Shown in pieces: positions 3,092 to 8,190 of a stretch of DNA of 24,299 nt (position 1 is the first letter of the stretch; each line of letters begins with the position of its first letter). Under the pieces are notes generated by a model, which was not told the origin of the DNA, searched no databases, and worked only from the letters and a program-made list of their open reading frames with translations. This DNA is from a virus. Both the position numbers and the translations under genes were made by a program. The stretch lies in IMG/VR virus record IMGVR_UViG_3300042301_000006, positions 1 to 24,299 of that record, one strand, 5' to 3'.

Positions 3092-4099
3092 ATGGCAGAT
3101 ACGACGACAACGAACTTTGGTTTCGTCAAACCAGAAGTCGGGGCCAGCTCCGACACTTGGGGGACCAAGCTAAACACCGATCTCGACGCCGTTGACGCGC
3201 TCCTCGGCGGCACTGGCGCGCAAAAAGCCAAGCCGAATTTCGAAGGCGGGCTGTGGAAGATTGACGGGACGGCGGTAACGTCGTCTGCTGCTGAACTGAA
3301 CATCTTGGACGGCGTGACGGCATCGACCGCCGAACTGAACATCTTGGACGGCGTGACGGCATCGACCGCCGAACTGAACATCTTGGACGGCGTGACGGCA
3401 TCGACCGCCGAACTGAACATCTTGGACGGCGTGACGGCATCGACCGCTGAACTGAACTATCTCGACATAACGACCCTCGGCGTGGCTCAGGCATCGAAGG
3501 CGTTGACAGTTGCAGCCAACGGCACGGTCACATTCAGCGGCTCAACCGGGACTTCTGGTCAGGTTCTGACTTCTGGCGGCTCCAGTGCCACTCCGACTTG
3601 GGCAAACGCAATTCCAGCAGGTGCTGTCATGACATTTGCCATGAACACCGCCCCTACTGGTTGGCTCAAGGCTAACGGCGCTGCCGTTTCGCGGACAACC
3701 TATGCCGCCCTTTTCTCAGCAATTGGCACGACATTTGGTGTAGGTGATGGATCGACCACGTTCAATTTGCCAGATCTTCGTGGCCGCTTCACACGCAACT
3801 GGGCGGATGACGGTAGCATCGACAGTGGGCGGGCATTTGGTTCTACGCAGGACGATCAAATCCAGCAGCACCAACATGGCCTTGCCTTTAACGCAAACGT
3901 GACAAACGCTGCGGCAGGAACTACTGGGGCAACGGTTTCCTCTTGCGTTGCGCTTTCAACAAGAAGTTCTGCAAGCACTAACTCGCTTTCGCAAAGCTAC
4001 GTCCAAGATGCCCCCTACGTCAAAAACGCTACTGGAGCCAACATTGGCACTGAGACACGTCCGACCAACATCGCCCTTCTCGCCTGCATCAAGTTCTGA
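3092..4099 (+). CDS. Tail fibre with phage tail-collar domain
   Basis: The product is 335 residues. Residues 1-40 form an N-terminal attachment segment seen in many marine-type phage fibres ([17 protein letters not shown]). Residues 66-124 are a shaft made of 13-residue repeats around [13 protein letters not shown]. Residues about 174-233 match the phage tail-collar domain: [32 protein letters not shown] and [10 protein letters not shown]. An HQH pair follows at 260-262, like the metal-binding HxH motifs of fibre tips, and the C-terminus ends in a typical [15 protein letters not shown]. It should be a trimeric receptor-binding or side fibre. The next gene looks like its assembly partner. Confidence 0.88.
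3293..3448 (+). repeat. Four tandem 39-bp repeats in the fibre shaft
   Basis: Units begin at 3293, 3332, 3371 and 3410. The first three are identical and the fourth differs at its last base (C to T). A partial, diverged fifth copy starts at 3449. The near-perfect identity contrasts with the surrounding shaft and suggests recent copy-number change by slippage or unequal recombination, keeping the frame (13 codons). Confidence 0.9.
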
Positions 4100-4107
4100 G
4101 GTAAACC

Positions 4108-4482
4108 ATGAAAGTCTTTCAAACTGACCATAACGGCTTCCTCGTCGGCGAGACTGTCGCTGATCCTGATCCGATGGACGAAGGCAACTGGCTCATCCCC
4201 GGTGGCTGCGTAGAGCAAGAGCCGCCAGCTTTGTCTGACGGTCAACGCGCAAAGTTTGTTAGCGGCGCTTGGCTTGTCGTTGACCCAGAGCCTGTCGTTG
4301 GGCCTGAACCTGAGCCTGAAATTCCGCCGACCAAGGCAGACCAAGAGGAACTTCGCCGTTCTGCATACCAACAGGAAGCCGACCCCCTGTTCTTCATGAG
4401 CCAGCGTGGCGAGGCTACTGTCGAAGAATGGCAGGCCAAGGTCGCTGAGATCAAAGCCCGATATCCGTATCCTGCCGAATAA
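4108..4482 (+). CDS. Tail fibre assembly-like protein
   Basis: The 124-residue protein follows the collar fibre by 8 bases, with a GAGGT site overlapping the fibre stop. The N-terminal part is small and beta-like (FQTDHNGFLVGETVADPDP, GNWLIPGGC, SGAWLVVD), then an acidic Pro/Glu linker (residues about 55-75), then a C-terminal helix pair ending EEWQAKVAEIKARYPYP. The ADPLFF...QRGEAT...KARYPYP pattern is shared by many small proteins encoded directly behind phage tail fibres and annotated as fibre assembly or chaperone-like (XkdW-like). It is likely to aid folding or attachment of the fibre; whether it stays in the virion is unknown. Confidence 0.65.
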   Translation: MKVFQTDHNGFLVGETVADPDPMDEGNWLIPGGCVEQEPPALSDGQRAKFVSGAWLVVDPEPVVGPEPEPEIPPTKADQEELRRSAYQQEADPLFFMSQRGEATVEEWQAKVAEIKARYPYPAE

Positions 4483-4485
4483 CCC

Positions 4486-4728
4486 ATGACCACCGAAATG
4501 CTCTGGAGCCTCGGCCTTAGCGCAGCACTCGGCCTGATCGGCTGGGTGCTGAAAAACCATGTCGAGGAAGTGAAGCGGCTGCAAATCCTGCTCAACCGCA
4601 CACGCGAGGAAGTAGCCCGTGACTACGTTACGCGGGCCGACATGCACACCGACATGAACCGTGTCATCTCGCGGCTGGACAACCTCGACAAGAAGATCGA
4701 CGAACTGATGCGGAGCCTTACCAAATGA
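4486..4728 (+). CDS. Small TM plus coiled-coil protein, candidate inner-membrane spanin or holin-like
   Basis: The product is 80 residues: a single hydrophobic segment at about 6-22 (LWSLGLSAALGLIGWVL) followed by a charged helix to the end, with heptad-like hydrophobic spacing in ISRLDNLDKKIDELMRSL. This is the layout of an inner-membrane spanin (Rz-like) but also of many small phage membrane proteins of unknown role. Its stop overlaps the start of a lipoprotein gene (ATGA at 4725-4728). A membrane coiled-coil gene followed at once by an overlapping lipoprotein gene is the classic two-component spanin arrangement, which is why I propose it. The endolysin is 2.6 kb downstream. Confidence 0.6.
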   Translation: MTTEMLWSLGLSAALGLIGWVLKNHVEEVKRLQILLNRTREEVARDYVTRADMHTDMNRVISRLDNLDKKIDELMRSLTK

Positions 4729-4940
4729 GACTAGCACTCGTCCTCTTGGTCGCTGGCTGCGGCCCTGTTACTGTGTCCTCGGTGGCTTACACAACGGCCT
4801 GCCCCAAGGGAGACCGCCAGTGCGAGATCAGACAGAACGCGGAAACGCTCTACTACATGGCAATGCCAGATGCAGCAAACGAACTGCTATGCTCTGGCGA
4901 TACGCGGGACGTTATGGGTGCGCTCTGCTCTATCTACTGA
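4725..4940 (+). CDS. Small Cys-rich lipoprotein, candidate outer-membrane spanin
   Basis: The product is 71 residues. A very short signal sequence ends in the lipobox V-A-G-C, with the lipidated Cys at position 12. Four more Cys follow (26, 33, 56, 68), enough for disulfides in the periplasm. It overlaps the upstream membrane/coiled-coil gene by ATGA and has a CGGAG site inside it. Size and lipobox fit an outer-membrane spanin (Rz1-like), but it is not Pro-rich and has more Cys than usual for that group, so another periplasmic lipoprotein role remains open. Its 3' end overlaps the next gene by 52 bases in a different frame. Confidence 0.6.
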   Translation: MRLALVLLVAGCGPVTVSSVAYTTACPKGDRQCEIRQNAETLYYMAMPDAANELLCSGDTRDVMGALCSIY

Positions 4941-5602
4941 CGGCCACCGCCAGCGCCCAAGTCAGCGGTGATCTGAACACAAACAGCGGCAACACCAACT
5001 CCACCATCGACAGCGGGAACGTCTCCACCAGCGAGACGAAGAACTACAACGGCTCAGGCTCTGCGCCGTTCAGTACGCCCGTTCCGACCGCGGCTGCACC
5101 GACAGTCATGGGCGGCGGCGGCAATGATAGCTGTCTGATCCCGACGCAGAGCGCCTTTCAGATCAGCATACTCGGTCGCGCTAAGGGCAGCATGGAGCAA
5201 GACCCTGAGTGCAACCGCCGCAAGGACGCTAGGCTGCTCGGAACACCGCAGGAGCACGGCGGGCTGGGCCTGCAAGTCAGCGGCATTTCCGTCATGTGCG
5301 ATAACCCTGACATATTCAAAGCTATGGCTCTGGCATCGACGCCCTGTCCGATCTACAGCATTGAGTCAGGCAAGCTCTTGGTAGGTCGCGAGGGCTACAT
5401 GGCTATGCGTGACAATCCGCATATTTATGTGGTAGGGTACTCCCAAGACACGCCCTTTTGGGACACATTCCTTCGCATGGGAGAGGAGCTGCCTGATGTC
5501 CTGCCTCAAGAAAACAGTGGCCCTACTTTGTCTGAGCGTTTCCGCCGCTCACGCAGAGCCAACGATGAACAACCTTCAGGGGTCAGCCCAGACAATCCTT
5601 AA
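4889..5602 (+). CDS. Sec-exported four-Cys protein, unknown function
   Basis: The frame is open from further upstream, but ATG 4889 is preferred because it gives a clear signal peptide: a basic start (MLWRYAGRYG), a hydrophobic core (CALLYLLTAT) and the cleavage site ASA before Gln24. The mature part (about 214 residues) begins with an Asn/Ser/Thr/Gly-rich low-complexity stretch (25-60), then a compact domain with Cys at 82, 108, 137 and 153 and the segments GLQVSGISVMCDNPDIF and STPCPIYSI. The spacing LCxxPxxFxAM...TPCP is one I associate with an uncharacterised family in phages of aquatic bacteria. It probably acts in the periplasm. It overlaps the lipoprotein gene (52 bases) and the next exported-protein gene (107 bases). 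Confidence 0.65.
   Translation: MLWRYAGRYGCALLYLLTATASAQVSGDLNTNSGNTNSTIDSGNVSTSETKNYNGSGSAPFSTPVPTAAAPTVMGGGGNDSCLIPTQSAFQISILGRAKGSMEQDPECNRRKDARLLGTPQEHGGLGLQVSGISVMCDNPDIFKAMALASTPCPIYSIESGKLLVGREGYMAMRDNPHIYVVGYSQDTPFWDTFLRMGEELPDVLPQENSGPTLSERFRRSRRANDEQPSGVSPDNP
5479..5488 (+). promoter_or_regulatory. Strong ribosome site fixing an overlapping start
   Basis: The sequence GGGAGAGGAG lies 7 bases before ATG 5496. It supports initiation at 5496, inside the upstream gene, and therefore the 107-base gene overlap. Confidence 0.7.
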
Positions 5603-6245
5603 CCAACTGTCAGCGGCTCAGAGCCTGACTGCTGGTGCCACCTACAGCGCCAGCAACGGCGACATTCTTGCCCCCGGAGTCATGCAGGACGCGACGATCA
5701 CAGAAGCGATGCGACTTGACTACAACTCTGACATTCAGGGGGTGATCGACGCAACATACTACAACGCCGAGATGCTGTTTCAGGATAAACACGAAGCAGC
5801 AATGGCAAATCTCGATTCGGCTGTGGATAACCTCGTTGCCGCAACTGCGGTTTTGATGGAGGTACAGGCGGTAGCCAACATGGCTGCCAACGCTGAAACG
5901 GTGACTCAGCAACTTGCCGTGCAGGCGGTCCTGACCAACAACGACATGACCATCACGGCTGCGGATGTGAGCAACTACAACAACGCTCTCGGCGCTGTGC
6001 AGACCTACGCCCGCGACGCGGGTGCTTTCTTGGCTGCCTCGCGCAACGCTACCATGACCAGTTCGGTGGACAGCCTTGCAGCAACTACCAGCACCAGCCT
6101 GTACGGGGCTAATGTGGCCTACTCTGCCACGGCGGACATTATGAACATCAGCGCAGGCCAAGTCTTCGGCATCGGCCTGCAAGGGCTGCTTGGCAACAAC
6201 GTGGTTACGCTGTCCGAAGTTTACGCAGCAGGCTACGGTTCGTGA
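5496..6245 (+). CDS. Sec-exported Ala/Asn-rich helical protein, unknown function
   Basis: The product is 249 residues. It starts with a textbook signal peptide: MSCLKK, hydrophobic core TVALLCLSVSA and cleavage after AHA (residue 20). The mature protein has no Cys and is rich in Ala, Asn, Thr and Met, mostly helical by eye, with a Tyr/Asn-containing middle (YNAEMLFQDKHEAAMANLD). No catalytic motif or known domain was recognised. The start is supported by a strong ribosome site at 5479-5488. Being encoded next to another exported protein and between two membrane coiled-coil proteins, it may act on the host envelope during lysis, adsorption control or superinfection exclusion, but nothing in the sequence decides between these. 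Confidence 0.65.
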   Translation: MSCLKKTVALLCLSVSAAHAEPTMNNLQGSAQTILNQLSAAQSLTAGATYSASNGDILAPGVMQDATITEAMRLDYNSDIQGVIDATYYNAEMLFQDKHEAAMANLDSAVDNLVAATAVLMEVQAVANMAANAETVTQQLAVQAVLTNNDMTITAADVSNYNNALGAVQTYARDAGAFLAASRNATMTSSVDSLAATTSTSLYGANVAYSATADIMNISAGQVFGIGLQGLLGNNVVTLSEVYAAGYGS

Positions 6246-6673
6246 GCGAAGAAGCTGAAACCACTGGCCTGCGGATCGCGGGCTTTGACGTAAAGGGCTG
6301 GTGGTTCGCTGCCGCCGTCCCTGTTTTGTCTGGTTTGAGCGGCACGATCTACTACGGCTACGATGTGGTCAATCGGTTCTGGGGCGTAGAAGAAAGCGTC
6401 GCAGAAGTTATTGACGTAGTCAGCAGAGTCCAGACTCTTGAGCAGGCCATACAGGACAACGACGTGCGCGGCCTCGCTCCCAAACTGTCGGCGATCAGCA
6501 CCCAAATGGTGACGATCCTCGAACAGCAGAAAGAGCTGATGGACTTGCGGTCGATGGTCGAAAAGTCAGACAGCGTGACCAGCGGCATCGACGCCAAGCT
6601 GCAAAAATACGACGCCGAGATCGAAGACCTGTGGAAAGCGATGGACGATCTTATAAGGAACCCGATGCAATGA
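6242..6673 (+). CDS. TM plus coiled-coil protein, unknown (lysis cassette)
   Basis: The product is 143 residues and starts with GTG at 6242, overlapping the previous stop (GTGA). One membrane segment is visible at about 20-39 (WWFAAAVPVLSGLSGTIYYG); a short polar N-terminus precedes it. Residues 48-140 form a long charged helix with regular hydrophobic spacing (VQTLEQAIQD, MVTILEQQKELMDLRSMVEK, LQKYDAEIEDLWKAMDDL), likely a coiled coil. It has the general shape of an inner-membrane spanin and is an alternative candidate to the 80-residue protein upstream. Its ATGA overlap with the next small Cys-rich gene means the two are probably made together. Confidence 0.6.
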   Translation: MSEEAETTGLRIAGFDVKGWWFAAAVPVLSGLSGTIYYGYDVVNRFWGVEESVAEVIDVVSRVQTLEQAIQDNDVRGLAPKLSAISTQMVTILEQQKELMDLRSMVEKSDSVTSGIDAKLQKYDAEIEDLWKAMDDLIRNPMQ

Positions 6674-6861
6674 AGACGGAATACCTGATCTGGTTCGGCT
6701 TTGCTGCGGCTGTTGCCACGACTTTCTATCTGTCCGGCGACGGATTTTACCGCTATCCATGCCAAGACCCCGTAAACTGGGCTGCCTTGGAATGTACGCC
6801 GCCCATTTGCCTGCGCACTGGCATGTGCGCCACTGACTTGACTGGAGGAGCGACACAATGA
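6670..6861 (+). CDS. 63-aa membrane-anchored Cys-rich peptide
   Basis: ATG 6670 overlaps the previous stop (ATGA); an earlier ATG at 6631 lies deep in the upstream gene and is less likely. The protein has a hydrophobic N-terminus (residues 5-21, YLIWFGFAAAVATTFYL) and a compact C-terminal part with Cys at 31, 42, 47 and 53 and the pattern YPCQDPxxWxxxECxxPxC. I recall similar Cys patterns in small uncharacterised proteins of phages of marine bacteria. Export of the Cys-rich half to the periplasm with two disulfides is the simplest reading. Its function is unknown; it lies directly before the holin-like gene and overlaps it by ATGA. Confidence 0.65.
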   Translation: MKTEYLIWFGFAAAVATTFYLSGDGFYRYPCQDPVNWAALECTPPICLRTGMCATDLTGGATQ

Positions 6862-7142
6862 AAAGCCACGACCCGGACGTGATGGAAGCCAAGCTGCGCT
6901 ACTTTATTGGCGTCGCCCTGACTGTAATCCTTGGCGGTACCATCTTCGTAATTCTCTACAGCTTGGTCTTCGTGACTCAGCCCCTCGGTGAGTCCAGCGA
7001 GAACGACCGCAAGTTCTTCGAGCTGCTGACTCCCATCGCCAGCTTTATCGTCGGCGCTCTTGGCGGCGTGATGGCAGCGGGCAACGGCAAACAAAAGGGC
7101 GGCAATAACGACGCGCCGCCGACACAGGAGTACACCGAATGA
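6858..7142 (+). CDS. Holin-like protein with two membrane segments
   Basis: The product is 94 residues. A charged N-terminus (KSHDPDVMEAKLRY) is followed by a first membrane segment at about 14-39 (FIGVALTVILGGTIFVILYSLVFV), a polar loop (ESSENDRKF), a second segment at about 55-75 (ELLTPIASFIVGALGGVMA) and a soluble polar tail. Two helices with a charged tail, length under 100 residues and position two genes before the endolysin fit a class II type holin that releases the endolysin. The family resembles holin-like proteins of phages of aquatic bacteria. A GGAGGAG ribosome site lies just before ATG 6858 (6844-6850). Confidence 0.7.
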   Translation: MKSHDPDVMEAKLRYFIGVALTVILGGTIFVILYSLVFVTQPLGESSENDRKFFELLTPIASFIVGALGGVMAAGNGKQKGGNNDAPPTQEYTE

Positions 7143-7345
7143 TCGGGATGAAAATCATTGGCGCTTTGATCGGACGCAAAGCCAAAGAAAAAGTGGTCGA
7201 TGCTGTGCTGGACAAGGTAAACCTGCCTGATCCAGTCGAGAACGCGATTAAGATTGCCGCCACTGGAAACGTAGGCGACCTGATTGGCGGCGACGCCAAA
7301 GAGGAATTTGTGAAAGCCGCAGTCAAGAAGGTGAGAAAGAAATGA
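7139..7345 (+). CDS. Small basic protein between holin and endolysin, unknown
   Basis: The product is 68 residues. ATG 7139 is chosen over ATG 7148 because AGGAG sits 8 bases before it. The protein is lysine-rich and amphipathic (GRKAKEKVVDAVLDKV; KEEFVKAAVKKVRKK), with a Gly/Ile/Ala-rich N-terminus that could lie on a membrane. It overlaps the holin-like gene and the endolysin gene by 4 bases each. Location between them suggests a role in lysis timing, but I recognise no family. Confidence 0.55.
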   Translation: MIGMKIIGALIGRKAKEKVVDAVLDKVNLPDPVENAIKIAATGNVGDLIGGDAKEEFVKAAVKKVRKK

Positions 7346-8190
7346 GCTTGCTGACTGAGGCCCAACTGGCCGCGATGATCCCGACCAACAAAGACATCAA
7401 GGCTTGGTGCGAGGAGCTGAACAAGGCTCTGCCTAAGTACGACATCACTACCGACCAGCGCATTGCCGGATTCATCAGCCAGTGCGCCCATGAGTCGATG
7501 GACTTCAACGCTCTGTCCGAAAACCTGAACTACCGCGAGGAGACGCTGAACAAGGTCTTCCCGCGCTACTTCGGCCCCGGCAAGCGCAACGCTGCCGAAT
7601 ACGCCAAGAACCCTGAGAAAATTGCCAACTACGTTTACATGGACGAGTTTCGTACCTCGAAGCTGGGCAACGTGCAGCCCGGTGACGGCTGGCGATTCCG
7701 TGGCCGTGGGCTGAAGCAACTGACTGGGCGGGACAACTACAGCCGCTTTGCCAAAGACTACAACATGACTGCGGAGCAGGCAGCAGAGTGGCTGGAAACC
7801 AAAGAGGGCGCGCTGGCGTCGGCTCTTTGGTTCTGGAACACCAACAAGCTGAACACCATTGCCGACACTGGCAACGTGGCCGCGCTGACCAAGAAGATCA
7901 ACGGCGGTGACATCGGCCTCGCAGATCGTCAGGCGCGCTATGCCAAGGCTATGGCTGCCTTGGGTGGCAAGATCGACGCTGCTGCGCCCGTGACTACGGC
8001 TGTTTCTGAAACGCTGCGCCGTGGCTCGAAGGGCGAAGCAGTCAAGAAAATGCAGGCAAAACTGGGCCTCTCTGCGGACGGCGACTTCGGCCCCGGTACA
8101 GAAGCGGCGCTGAAAAAGTGGCAGTCAGCAAATGGTCTGACTGCTGATGGTGTAGCTGGACCTAAGACGTTGGCTAAACTGCTCGCCTGA
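7342..8190 (+). CDS. Endolysin: GH19 chitinase-like lysozyme with C-terminal peptidoglycan-binding domain
   Basis: The product is 282 residues. Residues about 5-205 match the glycoside hydrolase 19 lysozyme fold: QCAHESMDF with the probable catalytic acid Glu51, SENLNYREETL with the second acid Glu60, and GWRFRGRGLKQLTGRDNY. After a short Ala/Val/Thr linker, residues 225-282 form a PGBD repeat (RRGSKGEAVKKMQAKLG, DGDFGPGTEAALKKWQ, DGVAGPKTLAKLL). The enzyme cuts the glycan strand of peptidoglycan at lysis. No signal peptide is present, so release depends on a holin; the holin-like gene lies two genes upstream. The start has an AAGGTGAG site and overlaps the previous stop. Confidence 0.93.
   Translation: MSLLTEAQLAAMIPTNKDIKAWCEELNKALPKYDITTDQRIAGFISQCAHESMDFNALSENLNYREETLNKVFPRYFGPGKRNAAEYAKNPEKIANYVYMDEFRTSKLGNVQPGDGWRFRGRGLKQLTGRDNYSRFAKDYNMTAEQAAEWLETKEGALASALWFWNTNKLNTIADTGNVAALTKKINGGDIGLADRQARYAKAMAALGGKIDAAAPVTTAVSETLRRGSKGEAVKKMQAKLGLSADGDFGPGTEAALKKWQSANGLTADGVAGPKTLAKLLA

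Follow-up and report, generated by a model that had tools for sequence, protein, structure and literature searches.

A proposed extended lysis cassette of aquatic phages that may carry a new trans-envelope system

Introduction

Why should a phage place eight small overlapping genes, most of them for membrane, lipid-anchored or exported proteins, directly ahead of its endolysin gene? The question is raised by positions 4486-7345 of IMG/VR virus record IMGVR_UViG_3300042301_000006, whose analysed stretch of 24.3 kb (24,299 nucleotides; guanine-plus-cytosine content 59.6%) is called the window below. The usual lysis parts of phages that infect Gram-negative bacteria are a holin, a soluble endolysin and a spanin. 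Phages that infect SAR11, roseobacters and freshwater bacteria occur in great numbers, and to our knowledge hardly anything has been established about the way they breach the outer membrane (OM). The reading that we favour, and hold tentatively, is that the region is an exchangeable lysis super-cassette in which four of the genes, lp71, exp1, exp2 and TMcc (module A), work like a multi-part spanin. It is possible that the cassette is an extended lysis cassette with a new trans-envelope system; the exported set is undescribed and probably helps to break the OM.

Results and Discussion

A constrained cassette of envelope genes

Eight open reading frames (ORFs) run across 4486-7345, successive ORFs overlapping by at least 4 nucleotides, with the endolysin gene behind them.

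g80, 4486..4728, + strand: one transmembrane (TM) segment plus coiled coil; phrog_462/phrog_7885 family, also in roseophage CRP-810
lp71, 4725..4940, + strand: small lipoprotein, lipobox LVAGC, predicted in the OM
exp1, 4889..5602, + strand: secreted protein, signal peptide ending in ATASA before Q; phrog_20531
exp2, 5496..6245, + strand: secreted Ala-rich helical-bundle protein, signal peptide ending in SAAHA before E
TMcc, 6242..6673, + strand: inner-membrane protein with a predicted periplasmic coiled coil and the C-terminus NP[LM]
CQDP, 6670..6861, + strand: N-terminal TM anchor plus periplasmic peptide with four cysteines (Cys), YRYPCQDP..C..PPIC...C
hol94, 6858..7142, + strand: two-TM holin-like protein, phrog_25359, overlapping CQDP by 4 nucleotides
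g68, 7139..7345, + strand: small cationic protein, no TM segment, no family
endolysin, 7342..8190, + strand: GH19/chitinase-like domain and PG_binding_1, no signal peptide

The preliminary description of this DNA had noticed a dense cassette of envelope genes, and this was confirmed: seven of the eight genes encode a TM segment, a lipobox or a signal peptide, against an N-terminal hydrophobic segment in 1/20 of the other window genes (Fisher p 5e-5). The TM segment of TMcc (residues ~20-40) is weak, falling below the strict cut-off of KD19 1.3, yet conserved; leaving TMcc out, 6/8 cassette genes have an envelope feature (p 5e-4). Signal peptides were called by simple rules, not with SignalP. 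Two start codons were revised: that of CQDP was corrected from GTG 6631 to ATG 6670, and exp1 most likely begins at ATG 4889 rather than as the longer GTG 4820 ORF.

Purifying selection was found in every cassette gene for which the ratio of nonsynonymous to synonymous substitution rates (dN/dS) could be computed, that is, all except CQDP. The medians over wider alignments ranged from 0.055 to 0.21: lp71 0.055 (the most constrained cassette protein), g68 0.07, TMcc 0.08, g80 0.12, hol94 0.13, exp1 0.155, exp2 0.195 and the endolysin 0.21. The cassette ORFs are real, constrained genes. Pfam, NCBIfam and PADLOC scans of the eight genes returned no match of note, and no protein of module A or of the CQDP-hol94 pair (module B) was assigned to any family of known function. 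PADLOC gave only a weak match (E 0.02) to the coiled-coil protein TMcc, and no defence-system model was recovered.

Exchange of the cassette as a block

Failure of the unexplained exported genes to co-occur in other phages had been set beforehand as grounds for abandoning the preliminary proposal; they were found together in many phages. Some 80 contigs contain the cassette genes in an unchanging order, with protein identities mostly of 75-95%, and the loci fetched by tblastn with exp1 and exp2 have a single gene order: g80, lp71, exp1, exp2, TMcc, CQDP, hol94, g68, endolysin. These counts, like those of the exchange comparison, draw on the best 80 loci per scan and are thereby skewed to close relatives, and one contig may give two loci. 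Contig 3300042475_001650 (L431-L433) was considered as a two-cassette phage and rejected as such: over 14 kb its two ends are 81-91% identical, so that in all likelihood a 37-kb genome has been joined to that of a related strain.

The exchange comparison covered the 703 pairs formed by 38 distinct loci whose sequence continues for 4 kb or more past the endolysin. The downstream 4-kb flank was less than 5% alignable in 605/703 pairs, and the downstream flanks of the 38 loci fell into 12 clusters. In the pairs with less than 5% flank alignment, the cassette (exp1 to g68) had a median aligned share of 97% of its length and a median nucleotide identity of 79%, and the identity reached 94% in pairs with zero alignable flank. 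Because the cassette aligns closely while the flanks do not, we conclude that it moves as a block among water-borne phages that are otherwise unrelated. Among its carriers, a J-type siphovirus tail protein is found in L019, L070 and L130, and podovirus-like internal or other virion proteins in L006, L107 and L020. Block exchange across particle types suggests that selection links the cassette to the host envelope, not to the phage particle.

Two modules joined in one cassette

Among annotated phages searched by tblastn, the Roseobacter phages CRP-810 and CRP-207 carry lp71, exp1, exp2 and TMcc together, with CQDP and hol94 absent. Conversely, Actinomycetia phage DSL-LC01 and MW202462 have CQDP alongside hol94 but no exp1. 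Since modules A and B occur without each other in these phages, they are separate units joined in the cassette. Thus the cassette does contain more than a holin and one spanin pair, as the preliminary description had it, and what was taken there for one eight-gene envelope system is instead module A, an independently distributed CQDP-hol94 pair and the endolysin.

A wider scan for CQDP found more than 570 relatives. A lipobox was present in 62/64 distinct relatives examined from this wider family, whereas the window group has a TM anchor instead. The gene after CQDP encodes two TM segments in 55/59 wider-family loci and almost always overlaps CQDP by at least 4 nucleotides. Such pairs of a CQDP lipoprotein and a two-TM gene (L346-L425) were seen in many aquatic phages, some on contigs of more than 100 kb; the pair of L347 is immediately followed by a GH25 endolysin. 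CQDP itself is unlikely to be an o-spanin: the window group lacks the lipobox, and one relative was recorded from an Actinomycetia host. A different likeness may be drawn to the T4 antiholin RI, a small periplasmic Cys-bearing peptide with a weak N-terminal TM segment that is a partner of holin T. Like RI, CQDP is a small Cys peptide with an N-terminal TM segment, in tandem with a holin-like gene, a resemblance of layout; unlike RI, the wider CQDP family consists mostly of lipoproteins, one carrier again being recorded from an Actinomycetia host. hol94 has the topology expected of a holin (small, two TM segments, beside an endolysin without signal peptide), and it matched no holin family.

Among cultured phages, exp1 and TMcc-like genes were found in CRP-207, CRP-810, HTVC023P, HTVC115P, Mosig and Baldr; phrog_20531 also matches proteins of CRP-207, HTVC023P, Mosig and L327. 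Pelagiphage-type loci have the order exp1, an exported protein X, then a TMcc-like protein, X being larger than exp2 (median 473 residues) and often having a long acidic linker. Behind exp1, a TMcc ending in NP[LM] was present at 82/84 freshwater-type, 64/65 roseophage-type and 37/44 pelagiphage-type loci, counted where there was at least 3.5 kb of room; the motif played no part in retrieving the loci. By a crude rule, a signal-peptide-like N-terminus was called in exp2 or X at 269/274 loci, compared with 64/553 control ORFs.

Some observations on individual relatives may be added. In HTVC027P (L430:3341-3874) the exported protein encoded just before a near-identical M15 endolysin combines a signal peptide of the exp1 type with a different mature part. 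Because HTVC027P keeps this signal peptide with another mature part, the outer component of the unit seems to be exchangeable. A Rhodobacteraceae-binned phage-like contig (L327:5839-9505) encodes exp1, an X-like protein, three small exported proteins (173, 128 and 145 residues) and TMcc, with no Pfam families of note. Several deposited names are doubtful: the CRP-810 record names exp1 'OmpA family protein', and 'lysozyme' is the name given to TMcc in CRP-810 and CRP-207 (L002:8824-9579, L002:10210-10632, L143:3292-3873); a Pfam scan that covered the CRP-207 proteins found no match backing these names. The lp71 orthologues of both phages are un-annotated.

A cysteine-hairpin domain shared by lp71 and exp1

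The two proteins share a helical Cys-hairpin domain with the pattern D..C.R.....L....G...AA..L.C.D.....M. Profile comparison of lp71 with exp1 (hhalign) gave a probability of 97.7% (E 1.6e-12), while the control comparisons with the remaining cassette families and with reversed profiles all stayed below 1%. The shared domain appears to be new here; the profile library does not link lp71 to phrog_20531. That PHROGs family, to which exp1 belongs, carries no function, and lp71 would be a lipid-anchored relative of its Cys core.

In exp1, a disordered stretch rich in Asn, Ser and Thr is combined with a core of beta hairpin and helices that has four Cys. The phrog_20531 profile matches the window protein at E 6e-7 and its four conserved Cys are present, a conservation that is partly built in, some loci having been fetched with Cys-containing patterns. 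The AlphaFold2 model (52 sequences; mean predicted local distance difference test score, pLDDT, 67) has residues 22-64 disordered and a core at ~residues 80-200, made of a beta hairpin and helices, with pLDDT mostly 77-94. The coding sequence of the exp2 signal peptide overlaps exp1 by 107 nucleotides, and this overlap is conserved; exp2 is modelled mainly as a helical bundle (mean pLDDT 76). Neither model found a fold match in the PDB at E <0.1. Against a viral structure library exp1 had nine matches at E <1e-3, the named ones being uncharacterised proteins of uncultured phages, and a further weak match in phage phiAxp-2.

The exp1 core also occurs outside phages, in exported proteins of Alphaproteobacteria (L331-L336 and Hyphomonadaceae genomes), where it follows Asn-rich or G-x-N collagen-like stalks, sometimes in two or three copies per genome. 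It was found in 15/60 genomes of the family of a Hyphomonadaceae complete genome and, among the 289 genomes of a class-wide sample, only in that complete genome itself. Judged from their translations, the neighbours of some of these chromosomal genes include crotonyl-CoA-reductase-like and thiC-like genes, and do not look like prophage.

A spanin-like reading of module A

How might module A act? In the reading that we favour, hol94, g68 and the soluble endolysin would open the inner membrane and the wall, with CQDP as a periplasmic partner or regulator of hol94; of the three usual lysis parts, the holin would be supplied by hol94, judged by topology, and the endolysin is identified by its domains. 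lp71 would be held in the OM by its lipid and TMcc would sit in the inner membrane, its coiled coil and NP[LM] tail reaching into the periplasm, with the secreted exp1 and exp2 situated between the two. The Cys-hairpin that exp1 has in common with lp71 could let it pair with lp71 itself, or with some host protein that has a domain of this kind. Once the wall has been degraded, the module A complex would bridge and disrupt the OM. For module A we infer late timing, complex formation and a role in lysis.

Features that make this reading spanin-like are an OM lipoprotein, an N-in/C-out coiled-coil protein, fitting Cys counts and adjacency to lysis genes. The constant gene order, the block exchange across podovirus-like and siphovirus-like backbones, the purifying selection, the recurrence of an NP[LM]-ending TMcc behind exp1 and the homology of lp71 with exp1 also speak for it. 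The lipobox is present in 22/22 lp71 representatives and the mature part has four Cys in 205/210 loci; Asp stands at the +2 position in 0/210, so the residue is of the OM-sorting type, and the OM location is predicted from sequence. There is no other predicted OM lipoprotein within the cassette. In TMcc the N side of the TM segment is more positive in 85 proteins versus 1, with 72 ties, pointing to an N-in/C-out topology; Cys is absent in 156/158, and profile searches gave coiled-coil-type matches only. Published two-component spanins commonly have no Cys in the i-spanin and up to four in the o-spanin (PMC6139136). Like lambda Rz/Rz1 and T4 PseT.3/PseT.2 (PMC6139136), module A combines an OM lipoprotein with an N-in/C-out coiled-coil protein, its Cys pattern (0 in TMcc, 4 in lp71) lies in the published range, and a holin-like gene and an endolysin stand beside it; unlike them, its lp71 and TMcc genes are split by two genes for exported proteins, and the Cys hairpin is common to the secreted exp1. 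As for lysis neighbours, the window cassette has its GH19 endolysin gene, the M15 endolysin begins 3-14 nucleotides after TMcc in 11 of the 14 pelagiphage-type loci with both genes, and in Mosig a GTA_holin_3TM gene lies directly upstream of exp1.

A number of findings weigh against this reading. Separation of lp71 from TMcc by two genes (exp1 and exp2) is unusual for spanins, and neither protein matched a named spanin family in Pfam, PHROGs or NCBIfam. The sole spanin-profile match in the cassette is a weak one of g80 (phrog_739, E 0.12). lp71 was not found in pelagiphage units, homology of exp2 to the pelagiphage X is unsupported (hhalign probability 1.9%), and window-type and pelagiphage-type TMcc match in the TM region only (probability 86%). 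In CRP-207 the neighbours of module A are terminase genes, and it stands apart from recognised lysis genes; a recognised lysis gene is nearby in only 24/76 pelagiphage-type loci, some of these loci being short. Elsewhere the CQDP/two-TM pair adjoins a recognised endolysin in only 3/80 loci, the L346-L425 pairs mostly having none within 3 kb, and the exp1-like domains of Hyphomonadaceae have no evident lysis role. Because the genes are not adjacent and have no family match, we do not class lp71/TMcc as a two-component spanin; our claim is that the unit would work like one. g80 with lp71 was rejected as a spanin pair, the charge topology of g80 being wrong for an i-spanin: it is positive on the C side in 63/64 orthologues, which predicts an N-out/C-in protein with a cytoplasmic coiled coil.

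A broader reading, which we hold about as tentatively, would make module A a trans-envelope system of several parts, so far undescribed, with which aquatic phages break or remodel the envelope. Its parts would be lp71 and exp1 with their common Cys-hairpin, another exported protein whose type can vary, and TMcc; it would be spread over roseophages, podovirus-like and T4-like pelagiphages and freshwater podovirus- or siphovirus-like phages, its Cys domain also occurring in exported chromosomal proteins of Hyphomonadaceae. In the literature library searched, no paper describing the unit was found. The module genes carry no spanin name, and the cassette offers four conserved candidate genes, of which exp1 and TMcc-like ones are available in cultured phages.

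Alternative roles

Could module A protect the infected cell or its progeny instead? T5 Llp and phi80 Cor are superinfection-exclusion lipoproteins. lp71 resembles them in size class, lipid anchor and internal Cys; unlike them it is conserved across differing fibre regions and tied to exp1, exp2 and TMcc. A system that alters the host surface or blocks DNA entry would suit a small Cys-containing lipoprotein with exported partners, and both the chromosomal exported proteins with Asn-rich or collagen-like stalks and the position of module A in CRP-207 are consistent with action outside lysis. However, strong constraint on lp71 and a cassette common to differing fibre regions are ill-suited to a receptor-specific blocker, module A repeatedly adjoins an endolysin or holin, and PADLOC gave no match of note; superinfection exclusion or progeny protection therefore seems to us rather unlikely. 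The low dN/dS of lp71 and the sharing of the cassette by phages with differing fibre regions also make receptor masking less likely, so that among the three options of the preliminary description lysis control or execution is favoured.

The nearest idea in the literature comes from the marine T4-like phages Melnitz and HTVC008M, which carry the curli pore genes csgG and csgF, for which a lysis role was proposed (PMC9004378). Module A likewise consists of phage-encoded exported envelope proteins in marine phages; unlike the curli pore, its exp1 and exp2 matched no known fold, and CsgG (PF03783) was found in 0/16 exp1-bearing records, on which ground a curli relation was rejected. That related marine myophages have genes for the curli pore but none for curli subunits (PMC9004378) would fit an extracellular structure or coat, built or modified on the infected cell by exp1 and exp2 or X, with TMcc and lp71 as anchors. 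The disordered Asn/Ser/Thr-rich stretches joined to the Cys domain, G-x-N collagen-like in the chromosomal proteins, and the long acidic linkers of X would fit it too. Against this, pilin, curlin and usher families were not found in the family scans and CsgG is absent, and we consider such a structure unlikely.

Phages often have small membrane genes crowded near their lysis genes, and several cassette genes have no known role. The region might then be a lysis cassette of the usual kind, accompanied by accessory membrane genes that each serve a separate role, and the genes of module A would have no function in common. This we find improbable, since lp71-exp1-exp2-TMcc in roseophages and exp1-X-TMcc in pelagiphages stay together where CQDP and hol94 are absent. 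That the exported proteins belong to the virion, or reach the periplasm by ejection when the phage enters, is very improbable: several phages do have module A amid genes for structure and packaging, but the signal-peptide-like N-termini of exp2 and X and the lipobox of lp71 point to export, and the cassette is common to podovirus-like and siphovirus-like phages.

Genomic context of the window

A major-head-protein homologue is encoded at the left end of the window, and the DNA polymerase and primase/helicase genes lie on the minus strand. A collar-type tail fibre is encoded at 3092-4099, with a short tandem repeat in four copies ahead of its collar-type C-terminal part. The preliminary description had placed the cassette between fibre and endolysin; its ORFs are indeed there, and one further gene separates them from the fibre:

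4108-4482: gene for a tail-fibre-assembly-like protein, between fibre and cassette

The best annotated relative of the window is MW202675, a 61-kb metagenome phage from Manatee Spring, in which the block has a nucleotide identity of ~72% and lies upstream of a gene named 'phage stabilization protein'.

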